A stretch of DNA of 31,433 nt, from positions 1-31,433 of the IMG/VR virus record IMGVR_UViG_3300002835_000714; one strand, given 5' to 3'. The notes beneath the pieces are model-generated. The model searched no databases. It was not told the DNA's origin and saw nothing but the letters and a program-made list of their open reading frames with translations. Positions 7,116 through 16,539 of the stretch are shown here, piece by piece. How positions within the stretch are numbered: the first letter of the stretch is position 1; every line of letters begins with the position of its first letter. The translations under genes were made by a program, and so were the position numbers. This DNA comes from a virus.

Positions 7116-7292
7116 CTATAATCTTTTAGACTGCTCTCGGTCGTAGGAATTTTTAGCTTTCATATACGCCATAGCATTCAGGAACTCTATTGTATTCATT
7201 TCAAAGACTTCTTTAATTCCGATATTTTCTTGGGCGGCAACAAGGTAACAGGTATAATGCCATCCATAGACTTTGATAAAAGCTCCACCACC
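7116..7292 (-). CDS. Frameshift extension of the tail chaperone (gpT-like)
   Basis: This is the -1 frame that would be entered from the chaperone gene at the slippery heptamer GGGTTTG (7298-7292). The frame stays open for 58 codons after the shift and ends at 7116. The predicted extension begins GGAFIKVYGWHYTCYLVA and ends EFLNAMAYMKAKNSYDREQ, giving a fusion of about 251 residues. A short G form and a rarer GT form made by -1 slippage are the rule for siphovirus tail assembly chaperones encoded before the tape measure gene. An internal ATG at 7199 (27 codons, ATGA overlap with the chaperone stop) could instead start a tiny separate protein, but the frame is open far upstream of it, which favours frameshifting. 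Confidence 0.7.
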   Translation of the reverse strand, partial: GGGAFIKVYGWHYTCYLVAAQENIGIKEVFEMNTIEFLNAMAYMKAKNSYDREQSKRL

Positions 7293-7870
7293 AAACCCGC
7301 TTCCGTTTGTTTCATCCCCGCCTTCGTCATCTCCGCTATCATATAGTCCTGAGAAACTTCTATCCAATTTTTGTAAACTTGATAAAAAAAAACCAACGAA
7401 TGATATACGTCCACAAACTTAGCCTCTTGCATATCTGCTGAATATTGTTCGTGCTTACTCGCATCATATTTATCGTCAACCCATTTTCCAAACCAATTAC
7501 GCCTCTGGGGTATAACCATTGAAGCGGCTATCTTATGTAAGTTTGCTAAAGTATCTTTGCTAAATACCTTGCTTTCTATATACCTTGCCGCAGGCATATT
7601 TTTAATATTGTAATTTATTCTGTAACGCTTTTTATTGATCTCAATATAATCAACAGGCTTGCCTTCAATAGATTCGTTTAAAAACTCTAACTCTTTACGC
7701 AATTCCTTTAATGCGCTTATTGAAAGGCTATCTATTTGGTGTTCTGTTAGCCCTGTTACAATACAAAGCCTATGCACTTCCGCATCTAATTCAGTCCAAT
7801 CCTTATCAGGGTTTGTTATCGTTGGCATTAATTGTTGATACTGCCAAAGGGTTAATTCATTCCATTTCAT
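7196..7870 (-). CDS. Tail assembly chaperone, gpG-like
   Basis: A 224-residue protein starting MKWNELTLWQYQQLMP. The W.ELTL.QYQ.L start followed by a helical domain and an IPVTLLPPKK tail fits tail assembly chaperones of Bacteroidetes phages. In lambda-like phages such proteins bind the tape measure and tail tube before assembly. The gene lies upstream of the tail block and contains GGGTTTG in the right codon phase (gcG GGT TTG, residues 191-193), which would give a longer -1 frameshift form. Its start overlaps the preceding mini-gene by 14 bases and a terminator follows the frameshift extension. The chaperone call is by position, architecture and the frameshift signal, not by clear sequence identity. 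Confidence 0.6.
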   Translation of the reverse strand: MKWNELTLWQYQQLMPTITNPDKDWTELDAEVHRLCIVTGLTEHQIDSLSISALKELRKELEFLNESIEGKPVDYIEINKKRYRINYNIKNMPAARYIESKVFSKDTLANLHKIAASMVIPQRRNWFGKWVDDKYDASKHEQYSADMQEAKFVDVYHSLVFFYQVYKNWIEVSQDYMIAEMTKAGMKQTEAGLVVELLSKSMDGIIPVTLLPPKKISELKKSLK

Positions 7871-8015
7871 AGCACGAAGTTAAATATATTTCATCAATAT
7901 CTGTGTCCTTTTCTAAGATTTCATCAATCTTATTTAAGACATCAGCACAATTAAAAGGCTGCCCTGTTTTGCATTGCTGATCCACCCAATCCCGAAGTTC
8001 AATTAATTCTTTCAT
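7857..8015 (-). CDS. Small protein of unknown function (52 aa)
   Basis: An ATG at 8015 opens a 52-codon frame (MKELIELRDWVDQQCKTGQP start) ending in TGA at 7857. The start overlaps the stop of the previous gene as ATGA (8015-8012), and the end overlaps the chaperone start by 14 bases, so it fills an otherwise empty 140-base gap in a tightly packed operon. The product is acidic and probably helical, with two Cys (residues 15 and 22). I do not recognise it. Confidence 0.65.
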   Translation of the reverse strand: MKELIELRDWVDQQCKTGQPFNCADVLNKIDEILEKDTDIDEIYLTSCYEME

Positions 8016-8368
8016 AAAAATTTTTTTAATCCGTTAGCGCTTGTCATTATTGCCTCTGCTCTTTGTGTAAGGCTTTCAATCTGGCTTTCTAATTCCGCCC
8101 GATCCTTTGTAATATAGTACCCGTTTGAAGTACCCATTACAGGAAGTATGCCCTCTGAACGAATGAAGTTAATTATTTTTCTTAATCTGGGTTCGCTAAA
8201 TAACTTGATGCCATACCTATTTTTGTTTTCGTTTATTGCGTTTACAATATCCGCAGCCTTAATAGGATTTACTTTAGTCTTAGTGCTTAACCCTTTGATA
8301 ATTAAAGGCACAAGTTTCTTTTCATCCTCTGTCATTACTTTTGTAATTTCCTCAAAGTTAGTAATCAT
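8012..8368 (-). CDS. Winged-helix-like phage protein, unknown role
   Basis: A 118-residue protein. Residues about 15-85 look like a compact helix-rich domain with a GLSTKTKVNPIKAADIV segment and RLRKIINFIRSEG followed by GTSNGYYITK; the order helix, helix, recognition-like helix and a beta turn with GYYIT fits a winged helix. The last 30 residues are a Glu/Gln/Ala coiled-coil segment. Such small winged-helix proteins occur in Bacteroidetes phages without a known job; it might regulate late genes. It is coupled by ATGA overlaps to an 18-codon frame upstream and the 52-residue gene downstream. Confidence 0.5.
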   Translation of the reverse strand: MITNFEEITKVMTEDEKKLVPLIIKGLSTKTKVNPIKAADIVNAINENKNRYGIKLFSEPRLRKIINFIRSEGILPVMGTSNGYYITKDRAELESQIESLTQRAEAIMTSANGLKKFL

Positions 8369-8421
8369 ATTTTTTTACTTTTGATTTCATTAACAATAGC
8401 CTGTATTAGCCAATAGTTCAT
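8365..8421 (-). CDS. Micro-ORF of 18 codons, coupled at both ends
   Basis: ATG at 8421 opens MNYWLIQAIVNEIKSKKI and stops at 8365. The start overlaps the stop of the upstream gene as ATGA (8421-8418) and its stop overlaps the next start as ATGA (8368-8365). The peptide is an amphipathic, basic-ended helix. It may be a true mini-protein or a coupling leader that carries ribosomes from one gene to the next. No homologue is known to me. Confidence 0.4.
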   Translation of the reverse strand: MNYWLIQAIVNEIKSKKI

Positions 8422-8612
8422 AGTCTATATTTTATTCTTATTAGCATTCCAAGTTCTGTATCGTTAGAATGCTTGGTTACTAATTTACGAATATTTGCTA
8501 ATTCAAACTCATTTTCAGCAATAGTTTTTTCTAATCTTTGTATTTTTTCAATAAGCCCTTCTATTTCTAATTTATCCAGAAGGGATTGTTTTAACTCGTA
8601 ATTACTTTTCAT
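8418..8612 (-). CDS. Small coiled-coil protein of unknown function
   Basis: A 64-residue protein made almost entirely of heptad-rich helix (LDKLEIEGLIEKIQRLEKTI, then NEFELANIRKL), predicted to dimerise as a coiled coil. There is no signal peptide or membrane segment. It overlaps the preceding gene by 11 bases and the following micro-ORF by four. I do not recognise the family; it lies in the block of small genes between the terminase and the tail chaperone. Confidence 0.55.
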   Translation of the reverse strand: MKSNYELKQSLLDKLEIEGLIEKIQRLEKTIAENEFELANIRKLVTKHSNDTELGMLIRIKYRL

Positions 8613-9415: not shown

Positions 9416-9450
9416 CAAATATACAGCTTTTATACATATTTTATACATTT
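9416..9450 (-). promoter_or_regulatory. Promoter copy 1 (TATATTTG element)
   Basis: On the minus strand TATATTTG (9423-9416) matches the Bacteroidetes -7 consensus TAnnTTTG. A 35-base block covering this element and the region where a -33 element should lie is 30/35 identical to the block at 21026-21060. Transcription should start near 9409, about 20 bases before the ATG at 9390. Confidence 0.75.
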
Positions 9451-9464
9451 ATAGGCACTATATT

Positions 9465-9495
9465 ATAAGCGGTAAATATGATGGATAAGCGGTAA
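9465..9495. repeat. Two direct repeats ATAAGCGGTAA, 20 bp apart
   Basis: The 11-base sequence ATAAGCGGTAA occurs at 9465-9475 and 9485-9495, a repeat of 20 bases, about two helical turns. The copies lie upstream of promoter copy 1, at roughly -55 and -75, directly after the terminase stop. This is the arrangement of an activator binding pair. A near-copy (TAAGCGGCAA, 21096-21105) lies at the same distance from promoter copy 2. Confidence 0.6.
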
Positions 9496-10647
9496 TTAGG
9501 CAAAAGCGTACCGCCCTGATCCCCTTTTAAGGTTGAAATTTTGCCACGCTAAAGCCAATGCCATAACGCAATCGTCGTGGAAGCCTGAAGGCGCTGAATA
9601 GCGAACCCCGTTAGCCGTGAACTGATATTCAAATACATCTAATTCGTCAACAATTACCCCCTCTGGGTAACCTATCTTGCCCTGTTGTATCGCCTGCGCT
9701 AATCCCTCCATTAATTGCTGCTTAGATTGACTTGTAAACTTTAATCCCTCAATATTTACCCCTTCCCTTATTAGGTCTTCAAGTATGGGATCACCTACGC
9801 CTGTGCTATCTGCCAATATAGGCGCAATAGGAAGCCTTTTAATGTTTGCCTTAGTATTATGCCAATCCATCTGGAAGCGGTCAAAATAAGCCACGTTACC
9901 CCCATTGTCAAGCCCTACGATAACGGTGAAGTCAACAGACTTGGCAAGGTCAATCCCATAAGCCACAATTTGCTGCGCTGATATTGGTTTAATACATCTT
10001 TTAATAAAGGCATTACCAAACGGGTTAGCGCTATTCTCGGCGGGGTTTGCAAGATATTCCTGTTCAAATACTACTTCCGGCAACTGCAATCTTGCCTCGT
10101 CTATTTCCCTTGTATTAATATAGGGATTGTCATAGGTACTAAATTTAAAACTGCGCCAATCATTTTCGCCCTGTTTCATAAACATTGAGTAAAAGAAATT
10201 CTTACCTCTGGGCGTAGATAGGAAAACCGCCTTGCCTTCATAATCAGTTAAGGTTGGTCGGATGCTATTTTGCCACCCTGATTCTAAGTCAGGGATAAAT
10301 GCCGCCTCGTCTATAATTACTAAATGAAACTTGCGCCCTCTTAAATTATCTAATCGTTCCCCTGTAAAAAATTCAATAGATCCGTTGTTAGGGCAATAGA
10401 TTTTTAGGTTGCTGATATTGTTTTTAAATGGGATAGCAGCTGTTAGCCTTTCAAAAAATGCCTTAGCCAATTTATAAGTCGGTGTTATGTATGCAACTTG
10501 TCCGCCTGTGATTGCTGCCTTAATTCCCATTATCTGGGATAGTTCTGATTTACCAAAACGCCTTCCGCACATTACGACAATAAAACGCCTATCGCATTCT
10601 AATATCTTCTTTTGATTAATATGGGGGTTTGGTAATTCTATGCGCAC
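9496..10647 (-). CDS. terL: Terminase large subunit
   Basis: A 383-residue protein with the ATPase and nuclease parts of a terminase large subunit. The Walker A motif GRRFGKS is at residues 28-34, Walker B with its catalytic glutamate at IIDEAAF (D113, E114), and the coupling motif STPRGKNF near 144. The nuclease part shows acid residues in AYGIDLAKSVDF (about 230), ADSTGVGD (about 272) and FHDDCVMALA (about 360). It would power DNA packaging and cut the concatemer. The start is GTG at 10647, which overlaps the TAG stop of the small subunit gene (TAGTG), so the pair is coupled. Confidence 0.93.
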   Translation of the reverse strand: MRIELPNPHINQKKILECDRRFIVVMCGRRFGKSELSQIMGIKAAITGGQVAYITPTYKLAKAFFERLTAAIPFKNNISNLKIYCPNNGSIEFFTGERLDNLRGRKFHLVIIDEAAFIPDLESGWQNSIRPTLTDYEGKAVFLSTPRGKNFFYSMFMKQGENDWRSFKFSTYDNPYINTREIDEARLQLPEVVFEQEYLANPAENSANPFGNAFIKRCIKPISAQQIVAYGIDLAKSVDFTVIVGLDNGGNVAYFDRFQMDWHNTKANIKRLPIAPILADSTGVGDPILEDLIREGVNIEGLKFTSQSKQQLMEGLAQAIQQGKIGYPEGVIVDELDVFEYQFTANGVRYSAPSGFHDDCVMALALAWQNFNLKRGSGRYAFA

Positions 10648-11012
10648 TATAAAATAGTTTTGCCTTCAACAAATACAACCTCAATCTTTGTATCTTGTTG
10701 AATATCATATTGTTCTTTAGGCTTCCCATAAACTCTGGTCAGTAAAGTATCTAAACTATATAGGCTTCCTTTTTGTAGGCTTTTGTTCATAGCGCCTGCA
10801 ATCGTCTTTTCTAATATTGTTGCCTTTGGGTTTTTATAAACTGCGTTTAGTTCTTCCATATCCATTGACATCATTACTTGGATTGTGTCGTTTATTTCGC
10901 TTAGCTTATAACCTTGTTCTTTGAGTAGGCTAACATATTTACGAGGACGTCCGTTTAGGTTACCCGATTCACCTTTTTTAAATTGGTGTTCAATTATATC
11001 TTGACTTGCCAT
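10647..11012 (-). CDS. terS: Terminase small subunit-like protein
   Basis: A 121-residue protein starting with a FKKGESGNLNGRPRK segment (about residues 11-25), the DUF5681-like start seen in many phage small proteins encoded just before the large terminase subunit. The middle is helical and the tail carries KIEVVFVEGK. Position and coupling to the large subunit make it the likely DNA-recognition subunit. The sequence alone does not show a clear DNA-binding fold, so this is a moderately firm call. Confidence 0.7.
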   Translation of the reverse strand: MASQDIIEHQFKKGESGNLNGRPRKYVSLLKEQGYKLSEINDTIQVMMSMDMEELNAVYKNPKATILEKTIAGAMNKSLQKGSLYSLDTLLTRVYGKPKEQYDIQQDTKIEVVFVEGKTIL

Positions 11013-11022
11013 TGTGCTGTTT

Positions 11023-12048
11023 TTATGCTGTTTTTAACCATTGTAAATATATTTGGTTAGATATATTAGCCATCATTACGGGTAAAACAGATCTACCCAT
11101 AGTTGAAATTGCATTTGTATCTAAAAAATTATAATCCTTTGGAAATGTAGAAAGTAATCTTACTTCTTCTATATTTAATTTTCTTTTTTGTAACGGGTGA
11201 ACAACAGAAGCTGCGCCCGTGCTTGTTGTTTCAGTTATTGTATAACAAGGCTTATTTAAAGAAGGCTTACAAAGATTAAAGTATTTCTTTGACGCACCTC
11301 CTATTGCTACCTTATCCCATTCTTCTATTAGGCAAGGAACTAATTTAATATCAGACTTTAAATCCCAATATTTTTTAGTTATAGAGAAAGTAGTTTGAGG
11401 GCAATCAAATTCTAAATCTAATTTAGGTTTTTTAATATCCTTTCTTAAGCCTATTACAAATACTCTATTCCTTATTTGCGGAATTCCCATAGAAGCTGCA
11501 TATAAAAGAAATACTTGTACATTGTATTCCTTCGACATTCTTTGTACTATATTTTTTAAATATATTTTAGCATTACCCTTAGCTAATCCGCTTACATTTT
11601 CTAATAAAAATACCTTAGGCTTTAATTTCTCTATTGTATCGCAATAAATATAAACTAAATCATCTTTAACTTGTTGCTTGCCTTCATATTCGGATACCTT
11701 ACCCCATAGCTTTTCCCTTGCTCCTGAAGTACTAAAAGCCGCACAAGGTGGGCTGCCGTCTAATATATCTAATTCATATAACTCCTTTGGTAAATCTTCT
11801 CTTTTATTAAACTCTCTAATATCTTCTAAGTAAAAGTACTTCGGGTTATGATTAGCTTTATATATTTTAGAATAATGTTCCGTAAATTCTACCCCGCCTA
11901 AATGGTTAAAGCCAGCTAACTTATAACCCATTGTAGATCCCCCGCCGCATACGAATGTCCCAAAAACTTTCATATCGTTATTAGGTACAACTAAATTATC
12001 GGATAAATTCCATTCTAAAGGGAAAATATTTTTTGTTATTTTCGGCAT
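11023..12048 (-). CDS. dcm: C5-cytosine DNA methyltransferase with motif X arginine
   Basis: A 341-residue C5-cytosine methyltransferase that adds a group from an S-adenosylmethionine-type cofactor to C5 of cytosine. Motif I is FGTFVCGGGSTMGYKLAGF (29-47); motif IV carries the catalytic Cys102 (DGSPPC); motif VI has ENV (150-152); motif VIII is QIRNRVFVIG (191-200). The target recognition region lies at about 205-300, including CYTITETTSTGAASVVHP. Motif X reads MGRSVLPV (317-324): the Asn usual there (GNSV in M.HhaI) is Arg319. The gene overlaps the CmoA-like gene by 13 bases and lies directly upstream of the terminase genes. It may protect phage DNA; see the finding on carboxymethylation. 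Confidence 0.85.
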   Translation of the reverse strand: MPKITKNIFPLEWNLSDNLVVPNNDMKVFGTFVCGGGSTMGYKLAGFNHLGGVEFTEHYSKIYKANHNPKYFYLEDIREFNKREDLPKELYELDILDGSPPCAAFSTSGAREKLWGKVSEYEGKQQVKDDLVYIYCDTIEKLKPKVFLLENVSGLAKGNAKIYLKNIVQRMSKEYNVQVFLLYAASMGIPQIRNRVFVIGLRKDIKKPKLDLEFDCPQTTFSITKKYWDLKSDIKLVPCLIEEWDKVAIGGASKKYFNLCKPSLNKPCYTITETTSTGAASVVHPLQKRKLNIEEVRLLSTFPKDYNFLDTNAISTMGRSVLPVMMANISNQIYLQWLKTA

Positions 12049-12680
12049 ATATAGCCTTTAAAGTTTAATGATTGAAAAAATGGCTCTATTATATTAAAAC
12101 CTGCTTCCTTTAATAATTCTATATTTTGATTAGAATTTAAATTATTCATTAACTTTCTTAAATCTACTTCTTTACTTAATATTTCTTCAGCCGTAAAGGA
12201 TTGCTTTTTATTATCATAATTAGAGAACGTAAAACATTCCTGTATTACGCCGTCATTACAAATCTCTTTTTCACAAAATATAAACGCCCCATTAATAGTT
12301 AAAGAATTATATACCTTTTTTAATATATCTGTTCTTTTATTAATATCTATAAATTGTAATGTAAATACTGAAAGTATTATATTTGACTTAGGCAATATAA
12401 AGTCTTTATTAGTAATATCTTCTTTAATTAGTTCGCAATTCGTTTCTTTAATAAATTGAGAATCAATTATATCATACCCAATACACTTACTATTATATTT
12501 TTTATTTACTTTATCTAATAATCTACCCGTTGTACATCCTAAGTCTATTACAATAGTTTCCTCTTTAGTAAAAAAGGAACATAGATTAAGTATTAAATAA
12601 TCTAATAAATCATAACCCTTAATAGAATTATTAATATGGTTATCAAAATCTTTTACAGTATCAAAGCTAAATTTATTCAT
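12036..12680 (-). CDS. CmoA-like methyltransferase, possible carboxy-SAM synthase
   Basis: A 214-residue class I methyltransferase fold. The SAM-binding motif is VIDLGCTTGRLL (44-55), followed by the acidic loop GYDIID (68-73). Aligned by eye with E. coli CmoA, it shares KGY near the N-terminus (CmoA PGY), the FTLQF motif (106-110), EK (137-138), FTAEEILSK (162-170; CmoA YSELEISQK) and AGF...FFQSLNF (193-207; CmoA AGF...WFQCFNF). CmoA makes carboxy-SAM from SAM and prephenate. In this alignment the residue matching CmoA Arg199 is Glu171, a caution. No partner CmoB gene is present. It overlaps the cytosine methyltransferase gene, which suggests a shared pathway. A plain small-molecule methyltransferase is the alternative. 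Confidence 0.7.
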   Translation of the reverse strand: MNKFSFDTVKDFDNHINNSIKGYDLLDYLILNLCSFFTKEETIVIDLGCTTGRLLDKVNKKYNSKCIGYDIIDSQFIKETNCELIKEDITNKDFILPKSNIILSVFTLQFIDINKRTDILKKVYNSLTINGAFIFCEKEICNDGVIQECFTFSNYDNKKQSFTAEEILSKEVDLRKLMNNLNSNQNIELLKEAGFNIIEPFFQSLNFKGYICRK

Positions 12681-13206
12681 TTCCTATAAGTTTCCATATT
12701 GCCATTTCCGGCGTAGATGCTATTTTAGATAATGCTTCTTTAACTATTAAATATTCTTCTTCAGTATATTTTAAATTAATCGTCATTGAATCCTCTATAT
12801 CATCAATATTTATTTCTTTATTTTTATCTGAATAATCCCCATTGTCAAAGTTTGGTATATCTAAACCCCAATCGGTTAATTCTTCTGCATCCCAATTATT
12901 CGCAAGGTCATCCCAATCCCATTCGCCATAACCTACATTATCCTTTACAATAAACTCTTTTTGCTGCTGCTCATTCCAATCAACTATATCAACATTAATT
13001 TCTTTTATTCCTGCTTCCTTTATTGCTTTTAAACGCATATTGCCACCAAGTACAACCATATCTTTATTAACTACAATAGGTCGGACGTTAAGCATATCTG
13101 GAAAGTCCTGTATTGACTTTACTAATTTTCTAAACTTGTCATCTTTAATTAAACGTGGGTTATTAGGGTTAGATATTACTTCCGTAATCTTTACTTTTTT
13201 TATCAT
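12673..13206 (-). CDS. ParB/Srx-like N-terminal domain protein
   Basis: A 177-residue protein with a ParB-type domain in residues 1-85: SNPNNPR (12-18) and VVLGGNMRLKAIKEAG (51-66) are the typical box motifs. The C-terminal half is acidic (WDAEELTDWGLDIPNFD; DKNKEINIDDIEDS) and ends in a helical part. In phages this domain is often fused to, or lies next to, DNA methylases and can act as a nuclease or DNA-binding module. Here it overlaps the CmoA-like gene by 8 bases, so it belongs to the DNA modification block. A role in plasmid-like partition is unlikely as no ParA gene is present. Confidence 0.75.
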   Translation of the reverse strand: MIKKVKITEVISNPNNPRLIKDDKFRKLVKSIQDFPDMLNVRPIVVNKDMVVLGGNMRLKAIKEAGIKEINVDIVDWNEQQQKEFIVKDNVGYGEWDWDDLANNWDAEELTDWGLDIPNFDNGDYSDKNKEINIDDIEDSMTINLKYTEEEYLIVKEALSKIASTPEMAIWKLIGNE

Positions 13207-13216
13207 AGGTTTTTAT

Positions 13217-13339
13217 TTACCTGCCCTGACCTCTATATAATTTTGGTTTTGGGCTATGTTTATTAAAAGATTTCTTAGCGTGTCCGCGCTTTCTTTTACC
13301 AAAGTTAACCTTTTTTGAATCACTTTTAACTTTTGCCAT
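13217..13339 (-). CDS. Small basic protein (40 aa)
   Basis: An ATG at 13339 opens 40 codons ending at TAA 13217. The product is very basic (MAKVKSDSKKVNFGKRKRGH, then AKKSFNKHSPKPKLYRGQGR), with no hydrophobic span. It overlaps the HNH gene end by 14 bases and fills the gap before the ParB-like gene. Short Lys/Arg-rich proteins starting MAK and ending in YRGQGR are common in Bacteroidetes phages; nucleic acid binding is likely but unproved. Confidence 0.6.
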   Translation of the reverse strand: MAKVKSDSKKVNFGKRKRGHAKKSFNKHSPKPKLYRGQGR

Positions 13340-13526
13340 CTAACTTTTTTTTATGTTCTTGAATTAAAAATTCTATATAATGCTTTTTATCCCCGTATTC
13401 AATATGGCAAGTCCTACAAACTGCCATCAAGTTTTCAATCTTATCCGCATCTGTGCTTCCCCCCATTCCCCTTCTATGTATGTGGTGAATATCTACTGCT
13501 CTACTTCCGCAAACCTCACAGGGCAT
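13326..13526 (-). CDS. HNH endonuclease
   Basis: A small HNH nuclease. From the ATG at 13526 it has 66 residues: zinc-binding CEVC (3-6) and CRTC (37-40), the HNH core VDIHHI (His14-His15), Asn32 in ENLM and His41. The frame is open upstream without ATG, GTG or TTG back to a TAA at about 13598, and the upstream codons read YLKHFGYSGEDF, which looks like the usual N-terminus of this family; so the true start may be a rare codon such as ATA at 13583. HNH proteins near terminase genes often help packaging by nicking DNA. It could also act on host or rival DNA. Confidence 0.8.
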   Translation of the reverse strand: MPCEVCGSRAVDIHHIHRRGMGGSTDADKIENLMAVCRTCHIEYGDKKHYIEFLIQEHKKKLDGKS

Positions 13527-13582
13527 AAAATCTTCACCGCTATAACCAAAATGCTTTAAATATATTTTAGTATGGTTTTTTA

Positions 13583-14137
13583 TTACAAATCTTCTTTATG
13601 GTATAAATACTCACTATCTTCTGTATGTACTGCGCCTGTCATTAATTTGCCCGAAGCGTCTTTATGTGTTTCCCCTGTCCAAAGCACTCCGTCTTTTGTG
13701 TAATGGGGAACGCCTACTGCAAATTTTTGCTTATCTATTTCCGCAAGTTTTCTTTGCGCCCAAGCTATGCCTTCATCACCACCCCAAGCTAACCACATTA
13801 AAGCACCACAATCTTCTTTAGGATCACCTTTACTATTTTCCCTATGCCTTTCAAAACTTGACATCCTTGCTATCGTTTCTCTTGATATGTTTTCGCCCTT
13901 AGCTAATTGATTAGCCCTTGTCCAACCTACTAAAGTTCCGCAACCTCTGTCGTTTTCTTTTTTAATATTTAATGCCCTACGAGCGTTTGACTTTGCCGCC
14001 TCTGGATAATCGTTATAACTATTAACCATTGAAACCCTGATTGCAGCCCATACGCTTTGCGCCTTTTCTTCGGTATCAAAGATGCAAGCACCTGATCCTA
14101 TTCTATATTTTCCATTTGAACATTTAATTACCGGCAT
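13583..14137 (-). CDS. Phage protein with a recurring helical domain
   Basis: A 184-residue protein. Residues 1-33 (MPVIKCSNGKYRIGSGACIF) form a short beta domain often seen at the start of phage proteins of this sort. The central part (about 40-125: YPEAAKSNARRALNIK, RGCGTLVGWTRANQLAKGE, DCGALMWLAWGGD) resembles the helical domain attached to some phage prohead proteases and other phage proteins. The last 45 residues contain TKDGVLWTGETHKD. No catalytic residues can be proposed. It overlaps the glycosyltransferase gene by 14 bases. Function unknown; a head-related role is a weak guess. Confidence 0.5.
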   Translation of the reverse strand: MPVIKCSNGKYRIGSGACIFDTEEKAQSVWAAIRVSMVNSYNDYPEAAKSNARRALNIKKENDRGCGTLVGWTRANQLAKGENISRETIARMSSFERHRENSKGDPKEDCGALMWLAWGGDEGIAWAQRKLAEIDKQKFAVGVPHYTKDGVLWTGETHKDASGKLMTGAVHTEDSEYLYHKEDL

Positions 14138-15131
14138 TTCCTATTAGTTTATTATAAATAGCAAATCGGCTCTTATTTACAACGTGTAAGTTGAAGTTAG
14201 TATTGCAATAATCATAAAGCGCTTCGCCGTAATGTGTTCTCGCGTCCTTATCATTAACTAAAAGTTTGATCCAATAATACCAATCCTTTTGACTATTGAC
14301 GTGGCAGGCAGGATAAAATCCCCTGTAAGGATGAACGTTGCTTACAATAGCAGGGTTTTTCTTTGATGCCGTTTCTAATACCTTCAAATTAGATTTCATT
14401 GAATTAAACTTATTGTCAACCAATGGGATAAGGCTTATATCTGAATCACAATAGGCAGCCATATATTCCGTAACGTGATTAAAGTTATATATCGTTGGGT
14501 TTAATTTAAGTCCATTTGTAAAGGATGCTATCATACCATCCCAGATATGCTTTTCGCCTTCATTGTAACCGGCTATAATTGTACGCACAGGAAAGTTTAT
14601 TCGCTTCATTGGGTTGCGCAATATCTCTAAGTCTTTGCCGTGCGTTCCTGAACCGGACCAGAATAACCTAACAAGGTCGGAAGGCTTTTTATCTAATAAG
14701 AATTGTTCTTCGCCGAATGGTATTGCGTTAGGTAATATTTCAACATTCTGATTTAAGTTATAAATTTCTGCTGCTAATCTTTCGTGCGTGCAAGTGCAAA
14801 GGTCTGCTATTCTTATCCAAGCAATTATCTGTTCACTTACTTTATTTTCTTTATATGATTCCGAAAGTATATGCGAAGCACCCAAATCCCAATGGTCGTC
14901 ATTATCCACAATTAATTTGAAGCCGTATTTTATTCGCCATTCAATCATTTGCTCTGGCGTTACATTATGCAGCATTCTATTCATTACAACAAGGTCGTAA
15001 TTATTTGAAACCACTTCCTCGTTTATTACGTCAGTCATTAAGCAATAATCTTTTTGCATATTGACTATCGGCATCAGGATTCTATGATAAGATACGCCGC
15101 TACTTTTGGACGCTATTGCTAAAATTCGCAT
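14124..15131 (-). CDS. Glycosyltransferase, GT4-like (GT-B)
   Basis: A 335-residue protein with the build of a GT-B glycosyltransferase. The N-terminal half begins RILAIASKSSGVSYHRILMP and contains KLIVDNDDHWDL; the C-terminal half has FWSGSGTHGKD (about 200) and a C-terminal SNLKVLETASKKNPAIVSNV (about 270-290) that matches the donor-binding E region of GT4 enzymes. It should transfer a sugar from a nucleotide donor. The neighbour is a GT2-type enzyme with a 13-base overlap. The acceptor is unknown: host surface glycan, virion protein or modified DNA base are all possible. Confidence 0.75.
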   Translation of the reverse strand: MRILAIASKSSGVSYHRILMPIVNMQKDYCLMTDVINEEVVSNNYDLVVMNRMLHNVTPEQMIEWRIKYGFKLIVDNDDHWDLGASHILSESYKENKVSEQIIAWIRIADLCTCTHERLAAEIYNLNQNVEILPNAIPFGEEQFLLDKKPSDLVRLFWSGSGTHGKDLEILRNPMKRINFPVRTIIAGYNEGEKHIWDGMIASFTNGLKLNPTIYNFNHVTEYMAAYCDSDISLIPLVDNKFNSMKSNLKVLETASKKNPAIVSNVHPYRGFYPACHVNSQKDWYYWIKLLVNDKDARTHYGEALYDYCNTNFNLHVVNKSRFAIYNKLIGNAGN

Positions 15132-15793
15132 CTAAGTTTTTTTTCTGTATGGTATATAGGTTGATACTTTTCCCAAACCGCTTGCGCCCTTTGTAAACTC
15201 GCGTCTTTCATAGCCCTGTACTCTGTGCCATTGCCAACGTCGTGTCCGATATGTTCACTTCTTAAATCCGGTAGGTAGTAATTTGTAAACCCTGCAATAG
15301 TTGCCCTTTCTGCAAAATCTCTGTCTTGCATTCCATAAGGATCATACGCTTCATTGTAACCGCCAATCGCATCAATCAATTCCCTTGTTATAAAATTATC
15401 ACCAAAGGGGGTATGAGTTTTATGTACTCCGTCAACTAATGGTGGTAGTTCCTCAACGCAATGTATTCCAATAATGCCTGTTTTTGGTACACGTTTTGCA
15501 AACATAACCCAATTTGACAACCAATTCTGTGGAAGCAATATATCATTTGCTAATAAACAAACGCCGTCATATTGTTTTGTAATTTTAAAACCTGCATTAA
15601 CTCCCGCGCCTATCCCTCTTTTAGTTTTTGATAAATCATAACCTGTAAAGGGATATTTAAAATTTACTTGCTCGCTTCCGTTATCTATTAAATAACAGTC
15701 AGCATCATATCCAGAATTAAAAAAGTTCTGGTCTATTATTCGCTGCGTTAAATCGTTTCTATTTTGGGTTAATAAGAGTACGGCTATATTCAT
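15119..15793 (-). CDS. Glycosyltransferase family 2-like
   Basis: A 224-residue GT-A glycosyltransferase. The N-terminus AVLLLTQNRNDLTQRII is the usual nucleotide-sugar start, with YLIDNGS (about 34-40) and a metal-binding-like LLANDILLP (about 79-87) where GT2 enzymes have DxD. GGYNEAYDPYGMQDRDFAER (about 145-164) is the acceptor-side ED motif. It probably moves a sugar onto the same acceptor as the neighbouring GT4-like enzyme. The start overlaps the end of the acyltransferase gene by 35 bases. Confidence 0.8.
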   Translation of the reverse strand: MNIAVLLLTQNRNDLTQRIIDQNFFNSGYDADCYLIDNGSEQVNFKYPFTGYDLSKTKRGIGAGVNAGFKITKQYDGVCLLANDILLPQNWLSNWVMFAKRVPKTGIIGIHCVEELPPLVDGVHKTHTPFGDNFITRELIDAIGGYNEAYDPYGMQDRDFAERATIAGFTNYYLPDLRSEHIGHDVGNGTEYRAMKDASLQRAQAVWEKYQPIYHTEKKLRCEF

Positions 15794-16316
15794 TTGTTCC
15801 TATTTTTCTTGCAGGCACGCCCGCGTATTTACTAAATTCTTCAGAAGTACCTTTAAAAAAAGCGCTTGCACCAATCATACAACCCTGTTCAATTATACTA
15901 AACTGATGCAGTACGGCATTCAATCCTATATTTGAATATTGTTTAATAACTGAATGTCCACCTATTTTTGCGCCGCAGCTTATTGTAACATTTGAATAGA
16001 TAAGACAATCGTGTCCAATATGCGCGTGTTTCATAATAAAACAATTATCCCCTATTGTAGTTATATCTTTTGTTCCTGCATCTATTGTAACTAATCCTGT
16101 AATAATATTATTATTGCCAATAGTAACTAAGCCTCTTTTTATTTGACCTTTCTGCATAATTTTTAAAGTGCCATAATCTTTTATTTGTTCTTCATACTCC
16201 CAATACTTTTTATGCTCAGCGGGATCGCCAATAATACAATAAGCACCAATATAATTATTGTCGCCTAAGATAACATTTTCACCAATAATGGCGGTTGGGT
16301 GTATAAAGTTTGCCAT
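15759..16316 (-). CDS. Hexapeptide acyltransferase, LpxA-like
   Basis: The start is taken at ATG 16316 (MANFIHPTAIIGENVILGDN), just after the previous stop, rather than the earlier in-frame ATG at 16331. The 185-residue protein is a left-handed beta-helix made of hexapeptide turns, such as IIGENVILGDNNYIGAYCII and MKHAHIGHDCLIYSNVTIS. The IHPTAIIG start and a central loop with GDPAEHKKYWEY are like LpxA, the UDP-N-acetylglucosamine acyltransferase, but the protein is shorter than LpxA and lacks its C-terminal helical domain. It probably acylates or acetylates a sugar nucleotide used with the glycosyltransferases. Exact substrate unknown. Confidence 0.75.
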   Translation of the reverse strand: MANFIHPTAIIGENVILGDNNYIGAYCIIGDPAEHKKYWEYEEQIKDYGTLKIMQKGQIKRGLVTIGNNNIITGLVTIDAGTKDITTIGDNCFIMKHAHIGHDCLIYSNVTISCGAKIGGHSVIKQYSNIGLNAVLHQFSIIEQGCMIGASAFFKGTSEEFSKYAGVPARKIGTNEYSRTLINPK

Positions 16317-16317
16317 A

Positions 16318-16539
16318 TTATTGTTTTTCAAACCATTTATATAATTTCATAATCATTTCAAATTTACACGAGCCGCACCAAACAGATACAATAAAATTAG
16401 GATCTAAATAAGATCTGTAAATATGCTCATACATTTTGAGGTCATTCAATTCAAGGTTTCTAATAAAACCATTCTTCGCACTTTCAAAATTACTTATGTT
16501 AGCAATTAGCCATTCTCTATGCTCTTTTTTTATTTCCAT
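16318..16539 (-). CDS. Small CxxC-containing protein
   Basis: A 73-residue protein with VSVWCGSCKFEMIMKLYKWF near the C-terminus (about 51-70), a CxxC pair that could bind zinc with other residues or act as a redox pair. It overlaps the preceding membrane gene by 10 bases. Similar short proteins with a C..C...MI...L.W tail turn up in Bacteroidetes phages beside a small membrane protein with KPFNCGSC, as here. Function unknown. Confidence 0.5.
   Translation of the reverse strand: MEIKKEHREWLIANISNFESAKNGFIRNLELNDLKMYEHIYRSYLDPNFIVSVWCGSCKFEMIMKLYKWFEKQ

Follow-up and report, generated by a model that had tools for sequence, protein, structure and literature searches.

A predicted DNA-carboxymethylation cassette in a phage of probable Bacteroidota host, and the co-occurrence of CmoA with a motif X arginine in related methyltransferases

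The window analyzed here, the whole stretch of DNA under study, is a linear virus record of 31,433 bases. A large terminase gene close to the gene pair described below, together with portal, tail, and Erf genes elsewhere in the window, identifies it as a tailed-phage genome. The pair consists of two overlapping reading frames, which encode a homolog of the carboxy-SAM (Cx-SAM) synthase CmoA and a DNA cytosine C5-methyltransferase (C5-MTase) resembling CmoX (Table 1), and which lie where the first-pass annotation had placed them. Apart from the adjoining gene for a ParB-N-domain protein, the surroundings comprise an HNH gene, a small-terminase-like gene (DUF5681), and the large terminase gene. 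The overlap of cmoA and cmoX is kept in 13 of 13 relatives examined, in which a purine-rich, ribosome-site-like AAAGG or AAGGG precedes the second ATG. Both facts argue that the overlap is not due to chance, and it probably reflects translational coupling of the pair.

Table 1. The overlapping gene pair and its direct neighbor, with positions in the window
Feature	Position	Strand	Characteristics
CmoA-like carboxy-SAM synthase	12036..12680	-	214 aa; TIGR00740, SpCmoA homology, AlphaFold2 fold
CmoX-like DNA cytosine C5-carboxymethyltransferase (predicted)	11023..12048	-	341 aa; nucleophile Cys102 in SPPC, Arg319 in motif X
Overlap of both reading frames, 13 bases	12036..12048	-	same overlap in relatives
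ParB-N-domain protein adjoining the pair	12673..13206	-	PF02195 E 2.8e-5; phrog_498 E 1.7e-26

The first experimental demonstration of a protective DNA carboxymethylation mark was reported in December 2025 for Synechococcus phage S-B43, in which CmoA and the C5-MTase homolog CmoX make 5-carboxymethylcytosine (5cxmC) (Yang et al., Nat Commun, 7 Dec 2025; PMC12783734). In this phage, SpCmoA makes Cx-SAM from SAM and prephenate, SpCmoX has the target motif GC and was shown to protect against HhaI, and CmoY ligates glycine to the modified base, so that the end product is glycyl-5cxmC (PMC12783734). The same study listed 5,615 CmoX candidates, defined by SPPC plus Arg, as well as 4,257 CmoA, 2,251 ligases, and 1,660 ParBc neighbors, partly from IMG/VR (PMC12783734). 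The window pair is a member of this published class, and this kind of system is thus not new to science; the window CmoX may itself be among the published candidates.

The best curated match of the CmoA-like protein is TIGR00740 (CmoA), which it matches over its full length with an E-value of 2.8e-22. Its score of 79.5 bits lies below the equivalog cut-off of 193.3, and so does that of the proven active SpCmoA (115.6 bits), which indicates that the cut-off excludes phage enzymes. The best sequence matches in the PDB are the CmoA/YecO entries 4gek, 4iwn, and 1im8 (E about 1e-12 to 1e-13). The same three entries are the top fold matches (Z 26.6-27.2) of an AlphaFold2 model with a pLDDT of 92.7, the best being E. 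coli CmoA with a Z of 27.2 and 1.9 A over 210 residues. Thus, the resemblance to CmoA that had been noticed from the letters is confirmed by profile, PDB sequence matches, and fold. With SpCmoA, the window protein shares 33% identity over the full length.

E. coli CmoA (PDB 4gek/4iwn) and the window CmoA share the fold, a full-length alignment, and the SAM-binding core, but they differ at the position of Arg199, which holds the carboxyl group in the E. coli enzyme (PMC3663124). In this column, the window protein has Glu171 and SpCmoA has Glu188. The first-pass annotation had identified Glu171 correctly and counted it against activity; this caveat falls, because SpCmoA is active with a glutamate at the same place. 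In both phage proteins an arginine follows four residues later, one helical turn on (R175 in the window, R192 in SpCmoA), and R175 may take over the role of Arg199. A further difference from E. coli is that the window CmoA has no CmoB partner. The lack of a CmoB-like gene in the window, which had also been listed as a caveat, is no surprise, given that CmoB is a tRNA-acting enzyme whose place is taken by CmoX.

The second protein is a full C5-MTase as initially proposed (PF00145, E 2.2e-42). Its top PDB sequence match is 8yf3, the structure of SpCmoX with Cx-SAM (E 1.2e-29). This entry is also the best fold match of the AlphaFold2 model (pLDDT 90.6) with a Z of 33.7, a lead of only about 2 over DNMT1 (31.5) and M.HaeIII (31.2). 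Sequence identity to SpCmoX is only 29%. Nevertheless, all cofactor contacts and the nucleophile named for SpCmoX, namely F25, E47, F48, D69, C98, and R350 (PMC12783734), are kept and align with F32, E54, F55, D76, C102, and R319 of the window protein. Arg319 lies in a motif X reading GRSV, as had been described, and its counterpart Arg350 contacts the carboxymethyl group of Cx-SAM and is required by SpCmoX; the wild-type enzyme took only Cx-SAM, and an R350N variant took neither cofactor (PMC12783734). With S99-P100-P101-C102 and with Arg319 at the R350 position, the window protein has the features by which CmoX candidates were defined by Yang et al., and the overlapping cmoA-like reading frame places a cmoA gene in the same genome.

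The window thus shares with S-B43 the cassette idea of a Cx-SAM synthase beside an SPPC-type C5-MTase with a motif X arginine. It differs in belonging to another phage, probably of a Bacteroidota host, in having a ParB-like neighbor, and in that no CmoY was found in the window. A positively charged residue at the same motif X position is also known from M.MpeI N374K, a DNA carboxymethyltransferase accepting Cx-SAM (as cited in PMC12783734), although this enzyme was engineered, carries Lys, is CpG-specific, and belongs to another MTase branch.

The relation between the motif X residue and CmoA was followed across relatives gathered by a CmoX search and a separate CmoA search of viral contigs, with no selection on motif X. 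Where motif X could be read in SPPC-type relatives, it has Met in 79 of 79 without CmoA and Arg in 35 of 35 with CmoA, counts that overstate independence because many rows are near-copies. CmoA is absent from the whole contig in 18 Met-type contigs longer than 30 kb. A distant lineage with GFPC in place of SPPC and located beside CmoA has Arg in 30/30 loci, in the form of GRTI or a GRTI-like motif, whereas GNSV or GNAV is present in five of its relatives without CmoA, all of which come from named phages. An SFPC-type MTase beside CmoA in locus L155 also has Arg. In a tree of 48 proteins, four changes separate Arg from other residues and all four independent pairs agree, for which a sign test gives a p of 0.125 (n=4 cannot reach p 0.05). 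The Arg clade of the window (100/100 support) lies inside a Met clade and apart from the SpCmoX clade. Separate gains of Arg are likelier than losses, although the tree alone cannot tell gain from loss. The window CmoX seems to descend from an ordinary phage MTase of the Met type and to have acquired the use of Cx-SAM independently of SpCmoX.

The pair also co-occurs in other phages, as had been suggested for checking: of the 73 CmoA loci, 65 also contain a C5-MTase, and in most of the remaining eight the contig breaks off close to cmoA. Two CmoA-linked C5-MTases are exceptions without Arg, one in L017 (L017:8811-10472) with a motif X of CSGIPP and one in the Staphylococcus phage SPbeta-like (L201:4669-5667) with VGGV. 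These enzymes either use another carboxylate contact or are not Cx-SAM users.

Several loci widen the range of such arrangements. The GFPC/GRTI C5-MTase lies directly upstream of cmoA at L136:1805-2920 and in about 30 similar loci (L147, L149, L161), and this lineage may be a separately evolved carboxymethyltransferase; GFPC-type CmoA-linked enzymes fall outside the published SPPC-based search criterion. In L106 (4998-7184), a reading frame of 727 residues with two C5-MTase domain matches adjoins cmoA and a cmoY-like gene, and its Arg-type domain accounts for one more separate change in the tree. Alcaligenes phage Afa-NA1 (L202:3953-4705 and 7178-8497) encodes CmoA and no C5-MTase, with a D12-class adenine MTase nearby, a possible and quite unproven lead towards carboxymethylation of another base.

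A natural replacement of the pair is found in the sister phage L032, which lacks cmoA and has a single GMSV-type MTase exactly where the window has cmoA and cmoX. On either side, the DNA of both phages is similar, with 87% identity over 9427-11083 and 81-82% over 12673-15816, and the MTase of L032 is 48% identical to the window CmoX. Conversely, phage L007 has nearly the same pair (CmoA 95%, CmoX 97% identical) with a large terminase that is only 61% identical. Together, these two cases indicate that the pair moves as a unit. The GMSV-type phage C5-MTases (L032, L036, L033) are the closest relatives of the window CmoX outside the Arg clade (46-50% identity), and some also have a ParB-like neighbor; they differ in having Met at motif X and no CmoA and are presumably 5mC makers. 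The ParB-like family occurs in 42 of 73 CmoA loci and the neighbor is kept at 82% in L032, which has no CmoA; the ParB-N-domain protein belongs with the C5-MTase neighborhood and not with CmoA. Cellular relatives are found in only two Flavobacterium genome contigs (46-49% identity), and a Bacteroidota host is suggested for the window phage.

CmoA needs prephenate as its co-substrate, and chorismate mutase and DAHP synthase both act on the route to prephenate. In two related cassettes, a gene with fused DAHP-synthase and chorismate-mutase domains (DAHPS-CM) sits between cmoA and the Arg-type MTase: L024:1229-2188 (PF00793 E 1.7e-27, PF01817 E 3e-13) and L146:3821-4819 (PF00793 E 2.3e-28, PF01817 E 1.3e-12). 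A dedicated search for DAHPS-CM genes in viruses found four, each immediately adjacent to an Arg-type CmoX, the other two being L193:94-1065, which is cut upstream so that cmoA is not visible, and L194:608-1579. A lone chorismate mutase lies between cmoA and the C5-MTase in L017:8561-8833 (PF01817 E 9e-10) and L140:5634-5897 (PF01817 E 9.2e-20). A gene at the same place in L144 was rejected as a chorismate mutase and encodes a UDG-superfamily protein. The phage DAHPS-CM genes probably boost prephenate for CmoA. In the window, a search for chorismate mutase found none, and the phage would draw on host prephenate. Chorismate and DAHP go unmentioned in the main text of the S-B43 study (PMC12783734).

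The pair is very probably a compact DNA-carboxymethylation cassette, in which CmoA would make Cx-SAM and CmoX would use it to make 5cxmC in phage DNA. This had been the central proposal of the first-pass annotation and is supported by homology to both S-B43 enzymes and by the retained arginine and other listed contacts. Briefly, as in SpCmoA, the window CmoA would convert SAM and host prephenate into Cx-SAM. By analogy with SpCmoX, the window CmoX would flip the cytosine, Cys102 would attack C6, and the carboxymethyl group would be transferred to C5, while Arg319 would hold the carboxylate and in this way select Cx-SAM over SAM. The overlap would keep both enzymes co-produced. The 5cxmC would be laid down at a short DNA motif and would probably shield the phage DNA from restriction, as suggested by the HhaI protection shown with SpCmoX.

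An ordinary 5mC MTase beside an unrelated SAM-dependent methyltransferase, with a neutral Arg319 and with SAM as the cofactor as in vertebrate DNMT3, would fit the Met-type relatives, which are presumably SAM users, and the two distant CmoA-linked MTases without Arg. The occurrence of Arg in SAM-using DNMT3 enzymes had been raised as a caveat. Its weight is reduced by the fact that Arg tracks CmoA without exception in this MTase family, both exceptions being distant MTases. Since Arg goes with CmoA in each of four separate lineages, since SpCmoX and its R350N variant show the cofactor dependence described above, and since prephenate-synthesis genes occur in the same operons of related cassettes, an ordinary 5mC MTase is very unlikely. 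Even less likely is a role of the window CmoA in tRNA modification, with its Cx-SAM serving that pathway as it does in E. coli and with the MTase adjacent by accident. Bacterial CmoA serves tRNA cmo5U, and PHROGs label the family of the window CmoA 'tRNA methyltransferase', but the invariant overlap, the C5-MTase in most CmoA loci, and the lack of a CmoB-like gene in the window speak against it.

More weight, though still as a doubtful possibility, is given to 5cxmC being only an intermediate that is further changed by a ligase encoded by the host or beyond the window, or by a non-homologous enzyme. S-B43 does end with glycyl-5cxmC (PMC12783734), the linear record may be incomplete, and two glycosyltransferases and a hexapeptide transferase are encoded 2-4 kb upstream of the pair (14124-16331). 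However, both glycosyltransferases are kept at 81% in L032, which lacks CmoA, and these transferases were rejected as specific partners of the mark. Moreover, a CmoY-type, Asn-synthase-like ligase (PF00733) gave no match in the 31.4-kb linear and maybe incomplete record of the window, and a search over the full length of 17 other viral contigs with CmoA found none in 16. One of these contigs is a near-copy of the window, and their records may likewise be incomplete. Because no such ligase was found, 5cxmC is probably the end product in the window phage. In Erwinia phage Alexandra (L200:3435-6750) and Yersinia phage fHe-Yen9-02 (L203:3974-6220), CmoA is followed by an Asn-synthase/QueC-like putative CmoY. 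These loci also encode a protein that looks racemase-like by eye and has no Pfam match, with an additional DUF1611 in Erwinia, a hint that the hypermodification may use an amine different from glycine.

Beyond the single cassette, the evidence tips towards a broader picture in which phages switched C5-MTases from SAM to Cx-SAM several separate times, each time with CmoA and a motif X arginine, with an origin of the window enzyme apart from the published one, with unligated 5cxmC as the final base, and with related cassettes carrying their own prephenate-making enzymes. The split of motif X between Arg with CmoA and Met without it, the natural swap in L032, and the prephenate-supply genes in related cassettes are new here. 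DNA carboxymethylation in nature has so far been measured in a single cyanophage and would thereby extend to a second enzyme lineage in probable Bacteroidota phages. If changes from Met or Asn to Arg recurred together with CmoA, a motif X arginine plus CmoA would be a usable signature, and the Arg and Met sisters would be ready enzyme pairs for tests of the cofactor switch. As to the source of prephenate, a question left open by the published work, chorismate mutase and DAHP synthase encoded by phages would provide an answer in at least some of them.
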